From Minwuiaceae bacterium (GTDB lineage Bacteria > Pseudomonadota > Alphaproteobacteria > Minwuiales > Minwuiaceae), in contig JANQEE010000041.1 in NCBI GenBank assembly GCA_028278525.1, forward strand, positions 1 to 64,000: a stretch of 64,000 nt of DNA, in the 5' to 3' direction. The notes beneath the pieces were generated by a model. The model did not search any database. It was not told where the DNA came from and worked only from the letters and a program-made list of their open reading frames with translations. Positions 51,573 to 52,633 of the stretch are shown here, in pieces. Within the stretch, counting starts at the first letter, position 1; every line of letters starts with the position of its first letter. The translations under genes were made by a program, and so were the position numbers.

Positions 51573-52379
51573 TTATAGGCGTTCGCCGGGGTCCTTCAGC
51601 GCGTGTTCCATCAAGTCGCTGGTGATGTACTCGAACGCTTCGTCCACCGAATCCGTGCGGAACATCAGGTCCAGGTCGTCGGCATTGATGGTGCCGAATT
51701 TGACCAGCGCGTCGAAGTTGACGATTTCGTCCCAGTATTCGGTTCCGAACAGAACGATCGGCAGCCGCTTTTTGATCTTGAAGGTCTGGATCAGGGTCAG
51801 GATCTCGAACAGTTCGTCCAGCGTGCCGAACCCGCCCGGCATGGCGACGATCGCCTTGGCCAGATAGGTGAACCAGAACTTGCGCATGAAGAAATAGTGG
51901 AATTCGAACGCCAGCGAGCGGGTGACGTACGGATTGCCGCTGTCCTCCATCGGCAGGGAGATGCCCAACCCGACATTCATGCCCTTCGCCTCCGACGCGC
52001 CGCGGTTGGCCGCCTCCATAATGCCGGGGCCGCCGCCGGTGCAGACCACGAAGCGGCGTTCGTCGCTATCCAGTTGTTTCGACCATTCGGTAAGCCGGCG
52101 CGCCAGTTCGCGCGACGCTTCGTAGTAACGGGCCATATGGACCTGGGCCTTTGCCTTCTCCGGATCGGCGTCCGGGTCGGCCGCTCGGGCCGCGGCGTCT
52201 TCCTCGGAGATCAGCCGGGCCGAGCCGAAGAACACGATCGTGTCGCGCACCTGATGCCATTCCAGGCGCGATTTGGGCTCCAGGTATTCGGCCAGAATCC
52301 GCATCGGGCGGCCGTCGCGGCTGCTCATGAATGCTTCGTTGCTGTACGCCTTCTCGGGAGAGTGCGGCTTGGCGCTCAT
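51573..52379 (-). CDS. LOG family protein (cytokinin riboside 5'-monophosphate phosphoribohydrolase-like)
   Basis: A 268-residue Rossmann-like protein. CTGGGPGIMEAANRGA and the diagnostic PGGFGTLDELFEILTLIQT (PGGxGTxxE motif) identify the LOG/lysine-decarboxylase-like family, nucleotide N-glycosidases that release a base from a nucleoside monophosphate. It belongs to the longer bacterial subgroup with an N-terminal extension (FMSSRDGRPMRILAEYLEP). Single leftward gene. Confidence 0.9.
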   Translation of the reverse strand: MSAKPHSPEKAYSNEAFMSSRDGRPMRILAEYLEPKSRLEWHQVRDTIVFFGSARLISEEDAAARAADPDADPEKAKAQVHMARYYEASRELARRLTEWSKQLDSDERRFVVCTGGGPGIMEAANRGASEAKGMNVGLGISLPMEDSGNPYVTRSLAFEFHYFFMRKFWFTYLAKAIVAMPGGFGTLDELFEILTLIQTFKIKKRLPIVLFGTEYWDEIVNFDALVKFGTINADDLDLMFRTDSVDEAFEYITSDLMEHALKDPGERL

Positions 52380-52525
52380 GGGGGCGGATCCATCCTATGG
52401 TTAACGACTGATAACGATAAAAGACAGCGATTAACGAACCGTATGCCATACCCGGCGCGCTGAAATAAGGCCGGACTAAAGCGGACAATAAGGCCCAGAA
52501 AAGGGTCCAAAATTCGTCCGATATT

Positions 52526-52540
52526 TTAATGCTTCATTAA
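52526..52540. promoter_or_regulatory. CtrA-type binding site TTAA-N7-TTAA
   Basis: TTAA-TGCTTCA-TTAA followed by CC, an exact match to the alphaproteobacterial CtrA full site TTAA-N7-TTAA(C). It lies about 25-40 bp upstream of the sRNA candidate at 52564, a typical activating position. Confidence 0.6.
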
Positions 52541-52563
52541 CCATCTAGGGATTATCTAAGCAA

Positions 52564-52633
52564 CATCACGGTCTTGCACTGATTCGTGATGCCTCCCTGT
52601 TGACTCGGCCCGCCATTGCGCGGGCCTTTTTTT
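52564..52633 (+). ncRNA. Small RNA candidate: two stem-loops with C-rich linker and intrinsic terminator
   Basis: First stem CATCACG (52564-52570)/CGTGATG (52585-52591) with a 14-nt loop. Then a single-stranded linker containing CCTCCC, complementary to a ribosome-binding site. Then the terminator hairpin with T7. There is no coding sequence upstream on this strand for the terminator to serve. A CtrA box lies just upstream. The 5' end could be near 52555-52564. Confidence 0.5.
52607..52633 (+). terminator. Rho-independent terminator (7-bp GC stem, T7)
   Basis: GGCCCGC (52607-52613), 6-nt loop, GCGGGCC (52620-52626), then seven T. A textbook rightward intrinsic terminator. Confidence 0.85.

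Follow-up and report, generated by a model that had tools for sequence, protein, structure and literature searches.

Does the intergenic stretch between positions 52526 and 52633 encode a small RNA (sRNA), and would that RNA answer to the cell cycle regulator CtrA? A first-pass annotation of the window (the whole 64-kb stretch of DNA that was analysed) had described this region as a CtrA-box-driven sRNA candidate with an anti-Shine-Dalgarno (anti-SD) linker. Judged from its sequence, the region very probably encodes an sRNA of about 70 nt that is able to block ribosome-binding sites. It is likely to be a stand-alone gene for a CtrA-activated anti-SD sRNA, a single-hairpin paralogue of the group that we refer to below as type II.

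Architecture of the locus

The TTAA-N7-TTAA site, the hairpin, the CCTCCC-containing linker, and the T7 terminator of the first-pass annotation were all found in place and were correct to each base (Table 1). The box TTAATGCTTCATTAA was the only TTAA-N7-TTAA site within the window. It is separated by 24 bp from the 5′ hairpin, which would consist of 6 bp and about 2 inner pairs if the RNA started at 52565. The terminator was the strongest on the plus strand in the 3.5-kb stretch scanned. As the annotation had noted, there is no ORF for it to serve: no plausible plus-strand ORF ended ahead of it, and the sole candidate (51603-52463) is antisense to the LOG-family gene. The locus is placed between this gene and an ORF without assignment.

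Table 1. Features of the focal locus and its siblings in the same genome
Feature	Position	Strand	Remark
CtrA box TTAA-TGCTTCA-TTAA (TTAATGCTTCATTAA)	52526-52540	.	full palindromic site
-10-like TATCTA	52553-52558	+	promoter alignment anchored on the box
5′ hairpin, CATCACG (52564-52570)/CGTGATG (52585-52591)	52564-52591	+	7 bp
Anti-SD linker CCTCCCTGTTGAC, core CCUCCC	52592-52604	+	predicted unpaired; common to siblings and to the SorX, SorY, mmgR, and BjrC1505 models
Intrinsic terminator GGCCCGCCATTGCGCGGGCC	stem 52607-52626; T7 52627-52633	+	7-bp stem, 7/7 G-C pairs
Inferred sRNA, ~69 nt	52565-52633	+	Y/R step at box +38/+39; predicted fold
LOG-family gene (Pfam PF03641)	51573-52379	-	divergent neighbour
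Sibling	G000 C57:200925		linker and terminator
Sibling	G000 C71:14289		linker and terminator
Sibling	G000 C61:59281		linker and terminator
Sibling, weaker linker	G000 C12:12561		linker and terminator

A 96-nt stretch of the locus folded better than 199 of 200 shuffles (z −2.7). In the predicted ensemble, the linker (CCTCCC through 52606) was unpaired with a probability of 0.84 to 1.00, and the CCUCCC core with a probability of at least 0.94, so that an accessible CCUCC-type stretch would be presented. The context of the linker is GTGATG, which is partly paired, unlike the TTTGACG of most type II members. When the 140 nt upstream were shuffled with dinucleotides preserved, 1% of the shuffles contained a perfect box, and the box alone is therefore no more than suggestive. 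What lifts it far above chance is its recurrence, at an almost constant distance, in relatives with the same linker.

Sibling loci and known sRNA families

The genome has five intergenic loci that carry a CCTCCCTGTT linker ahead of a terminator. With the siblings of the focal locus, the small-RNA claim of the first-pass annotation withstood testing. Since no CtrA box was found at C71, C61, and C12, a locus of the linker group need not be under CtrA control. The unboxed loci G000:C61:59281 and G000:C71:14289 have the exact CCTCCCTGTTGACTC linker, and the T-run of the former is preceded by an unusually long G+C-rich stem.

A covariance model of the linker and terminator (R1), built from 12 sequences including the focal one, had matches in 200 of the 387 genomes sampled from the class. 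The focal copy obtained the best R1 score of the survey, partly by construction, being one of the 12 model sequences. No focal orthologue was present in the genomes searched, and a single genome is so far the only source of this copy; its nearest single-hairpin analogue (G009:C110) lies at a different locus. Other single-hairpin boxed forms are L068, L080, L090, L174, L201, and L237. These comparisons place the focal gene, as a paralogue, within a genuine group of sRNAs. Tandem copies about 200 bp apart were also seen, of the boxed type in L191 and L210 and of type I in L298.

An Rfam search of the focal sequence returned nothing above gathering. The best match below it was SorX (29.6 bits against a gathering threshold of 46.6; E 3.9e-5); SorY, RyhB, and others came next, and the matches to mmgR and BjrC1505 were weaker. 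We rejected assignment to SorX, SorY, mmgR, or BjrC1505, as all scored under gathering. The alignments of these four families converge on CCUCCCUGUU or CCUCCCU ahead of the terminator, and by this recurrence the claim of an anti-SD linker held. SorX and SorY of Rhodobacter sphaeroides (RF02784 and RF02651) further share CCUCCCUGUUG-AC and the layout of a hairpin plus terminator with the focal RNA. Both are under the control of stress sigma factors.

BjrC1505 (RF02356) resembles the focal RNA in its linker, TTGACG-CCTCCC-TGTT, in the GCCGCC terminator arms of many members, and in a CtrA-like box upstream. Its linker GACGCCUCCCUGUU plus terminator has a focal counterpart in GATGCCTCCCTGTTGAC, with one difference in the upstream part. 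However, the focal RNA scored 15.1 bits against a gathering threshold of 50, the locus is different, and BjrC1505 has two hairpins between start and linker where the focal RNA has one. The sibling C57 reached 38.4 bits with this model, and 10 of the 15 relatives tested passed gathering (L193, L182, L212, and seven others; 52 to 101 bits). The RF02356 consensus starts with UUuACggccuAUUaa, which reads TTTA-N7-TTAA. Since the match in L193 begins 48 bases upstream of the inferred start, part of the model looks like a promoter; model positions 1 to 45 probably represent promoter DNA and not RNA.

The alpha-r8 RNAs (MmgR of Sinorhizobium, RF00519, and SisA-D of Caulobacter) likewise combine a weak 5′ hairpin, an unpaired CCUCCCU stretch, and a terminator, and occur as several siblings per genome. 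Their 10-mer UUUCCUCCCU lies downstream of the weak hairpin (PMC12559287); the focal RNA has AUGCCUCCCU, which agrees at 8 of the 10 positions. It scored 17.5 bits compared to 41 for RF00519. Moreover, alpha-r8 adjoins an N-formylglutamate amidohydrolase gene in most species, whereas the focal neighbours are the LOG-family gene and unassigned ORFs. SisA repressed 8 of 10 tested mRNA fusions, and its authors ascribe an anti-SD signature to the 10-mer, which is also the pairing site of the sponge CrfA (PMC12559287). The sisA-D promoters reportedly lack a common motif (PMC12559287), which sets the boxed type, with its conserved CtrA promoter, apart from them. NfeR1 uses CCUCCUCCC in similar anti-SD repression (PMC10746234).

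CtrA-linked RNAs are known from Caulobacter: CcnA (PMC8959179), six ncRNAs among the promoters with a CtrA motif (PMC4287350), and further predictions (PMC5988900). CcnA is set apart by its description, being 182 nt long, located inside the replication origin, and equipped with a C-rich loop directed against the ctrA/gcrA mRNAs. EcpR1 and GspR of Sinorhizobium are similar in being tied into cell cycle control but repress dnaA/gcrA or ctrA, EcpR1 with the pairing motif UCCGCCGCAUCU (PMC4414408). Identity with either was ruled out by the other pairing motif or by the absence of CCUCC from the papers' text.

The CtrA box in relatives and promoter geometry

About 110 of the best R1 matches were retrieved and divided by eye according to linker context. 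Type I has ...ACGTCTCCCAGACGTGAAG before CCTCCC; type II comprises the remainder, mostly with ...TTTGACG or TTTGATG, and its pattern TTGACG-CCTCCCTGTTGA covers Rfam BjrC1505 and diverged kin. The box was searched for in the 140 nt ending 30 nt upstream of the linker, and distinct loci were counted. A perfect TTAA-N7-TTAA was present in 14/29 type II loci versus 0/81 type I loci (Fisher p 4e-10; because loci share ancestry, p-values here overstate the number of independent events). Spacings of 5, 6, 8, and 9 gave no perfect box in the type II search regions, and the other 256,608 bases of these loci contain two sites with spacing 7. Because the type I loci lack boxes, we rejected CtrA control as a property common to all CCTCCC siblings. 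Two more boxed copies were found among the weak linker matches of relatives (G001:C248 and G035:C3), one of them in the same family.

For an independent set, genome contigs were scanned for TTGAYGCCTCCCTGTTGAM while the promoter was disregarded. This gave 80 named loci, reduced to 69 distinct ones with a terminator and sufficient upstream sequence; both sets draw on public genomes and thus overlap in part, and the invariance of the linker in the named set is circular because the linker was the selection criterion. A perfect box was present in 30/69 loci, and 67 had a box with no more than one mismatch. Spacings of 5, 6, 8, and 9 yielded 0, 1, 0, and 0 perfect and 10, 29, 6, and 6 one-mismatch boxes, respectively. 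At the level of sequence, the CtrA-box promoter of the first-pass annotation is thus borne out by a spacing-specific box in relatives picked regardless of promoter. The hosts include Bosea, Hyphomicrobium, Filomicrobium, Devosia, Aurantimonas, Microvirga, Rhodoplanes, and Mesorhizobium (all Hyphomicrobiales), as well as Sneathiella (Sneathiellales) and Kiloniella (Rhodospirillales), the last with one-mismatch boxes.

We aligned 87 promoters on the box, taking its start as 0. They share TAnnnT at 26 to 31 (T 83%, A 89%, T 67%), a pyrimidine at 38 in 84%, and a purine at 39 in 85%; both the −10 and the Y/R step are features outside the selection of these promoters. Counted from the start that they indicate, the first base of the box is at −39. 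The focal copy has A52565 at +39, preceded by C52564, which would put the box 39 bases before the start. In Caulobacter, activated promoters are reported to have the full CtrA motif close to the −35 region, and the position given for ctrA P2 is −39 (PMC4287350), which the focal box fits. The boxes of relatives stand 11 to 12 bases ahead of a −10 pointing toward the sRNA, and 83 to 106 bases (two-hairpin forms) or 66 to 74 bases (single-hairpin forms) from the linker. The focal −10 is weak, matching TATAAT at 3/6 positions, and like that of sibling G000:C57 it is 1 base farther from the box than the family mode.

GANTC (CcrM) was dismissed as a family-wide promoter feature, as it occurs in just 17/87 promoters, which are Bosea-type sequences. 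In Bosea-type loci (L172, L176, L180, L193, and others) it is found at positions 16 and 29 from the box start, in 13 promoters each, flanking or touching the −10.

The genome carries ctrA (G000:C52; NF045991, 427 bits against a cutoff of 350), and the region upstream of ctrA itself contains TTAATCCTTGTTTAA, 77 bases before the start of the gene. Among the first 50 TTAA-N5..9-TTAA sites listed genome-wide, 25 have spacing 7 and the other spacings account for 3 to 9 each (p 2e-6 versus equal shares). Most of the 20 such sites inspected lie in intergenic stretches.

Under the mechanism that we propose, phosphorylated CtrA on the TTAA-N7-TTAA site at −39 to −25 would recruit sigma-70 polymerase to the weak −10, and a 69-nt RNA would be made from about 52565 while CtrA is active. 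This RNA would open with the 5′ hairpin, continue with an unpaired CCUCCCUGUUGAC linker, and close with a terminator ending in U7. The linker could pair with GGGAGG-type ribosome-binding sites, probably on Hfq, and translation of several mRNAs would be repressed, as with SisA (alpha-r8) of Caulobacter. By this analogy, translation of mRNAs whose leaders carry GGGAGG may be repressed by the focal RNA while CtrA is active. For pairing between the linker and the ctrA leader, −18 kcal/mol was calculated, a value that we do not put forward as evidence of targeting.

Homologues had been anticipated beside LOG genes, and this expectation failed. LOG proteins of relatives are 62 to 66% identical, linkage to LOG is not conserved, and LOG-linked orthologues were ruled out, as the relatives' LOG genes have no adjoining linker and terminator. 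The sibling C57:200925 and the boxed copies in G009:C124, G001:C248, G035:C3, and many named genomes lie instead among genes for a quinone oxidoreductase-like protein, TrcR, and/or an O-acetylhomoserine lyase-like protein. The trcR product (Pfam PF06242, formerly DUF1013) is named "Transcriptional cell cycle regulator TrcR." From these neighborhoods we conclude that the vicinity of trcR and the quinone oxidoreductase gene is the ancestral place of the boxed (type II) locus and that the focal gene is an extra copy, its genome holding both the ancestral-type and the focal boxed copies. The boxed sRNA gene adjoins trcR across several orders (L185, L193, L236, and others).

The covariation proposed as a check was obtained for the two-hairpin relatives; the focal hairpin itself falls outside the test, as the searched genomes contain no orthologue of it. 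Across 10 pairs in an alignment of 43 two-hairpin relatives, 44 cells changed on both sides with pairing kept, a count that 0 of 500 shuffles matched; slid partners fared far worse. The covarying regions are hairpin 2, in all five of its pairs, and the terminator, with hairpin 1 left out of the pair count as it was misaligned by MAFFT. A short UUGACG-CCUCCC-UGUUGA hairpin is predicted around the core; it is too invariant for covariation, and the invariance is partly a selection effect.

Competing readings and significance

Three other readings of the locus were weighed. The RNA could be a genuine anti-SD sRNA whose box is no activator but a CtrA repressor site, part of the LOG promoter, or an AT-rich sequence for another factor. 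The box also lies about 150 bp ahead of the LOG start, and a full CtrA site placed over a start can repress, as at ctrA P3 with its box at −14 (PMC4287350). LOG is not the neighbour in relatives, yet there the box keeps its distance to the linker and the −10, and its spacing is strictly the 7 of CtrA, with 5, 6, 8, and 9 nearly absent. We regard this possibility as unlikely. It is less probable still that the locus is a relic, a duplicated sRNA gene with recognisable promoter and terminator that has lost transcription or function. The missing orthologue, the weak −10, and the drift of the TTTGACG part of the linker to GTGATG would suit such decay, but no damage is seen in the box, the core of the linker, the hairpin, or the terminator, and the R1 score is the best of the survey (in part by construction).

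A free-standing terminator that halts read-through between divergent genes, next to a chance TTAA pair, would involve no sRNA at all. The rate at which shuffles produce the box would allow for the pair, but the siblings and the class-wide conservation of linker, terminator, and box argue strongly against this explanation, and we give it very little credence. A CtrA-activated sRNA gene thus remains our preferred reading of the locus.

With somewhat less assurance, we favor a conserved CtrA-to-sRNA module in at least Hyphomicrobiales, Sneathiellales, and Rhodospirillales. In this module, CtrA would directly activate a trcR-linked anti-SD sRNA, some genomes would hold a second boxed copy, and the 5′ part of the BjrC1505 model in Rfam would be a CtrA promoter mistaken for RNA. 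If so, a broad translational brake would be applied in step with the cell cycle. Anti-SD sRNAs and CtrA-driven sRNAs are each already known; their conserved union appears to be unreported. In the literature searched, which did not extend to subscription papers and supplements, the listed family BjrC1505 came up in a single paper, and no link between it and CtrA was found. CtrA regulons of Alphaproteobacteria are mostly described as protein genes. A CtrA site at a constant position before a widely conserved, multitarget sRNA would add a posttranscriptional arm to the cell cycle circuit well beyond Caulobacter. For the uncharacterised family BjrC1505, the analysis supplies a candidate regulator, a pairing motif, and a predicted start site; with these, direct tests of its function could be made in Bosea, Hyphomicrobium, Devosia, and Sneathiella, which are culturable. 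Within one genome, sibling anti-SD sRNAs can be separated by promoter; boxed and unboxed copies have a common seed and would be expected to differ in timing.

The type I arrangement, ...ACGTCTCCCAGACGTGAAG-CCTCCCTGTTNAAC-terminator, occurs very widely across the class (L060 to L169, e.g., L119:1173-1250, L081:1504-1573, and L317:6542-6617). The type I copies tested scored 30 to 44 bits with SorX, under the Rfam gathering threshold of 46.6, and a separate family for type I, or a broader SorX model, may be warranted.
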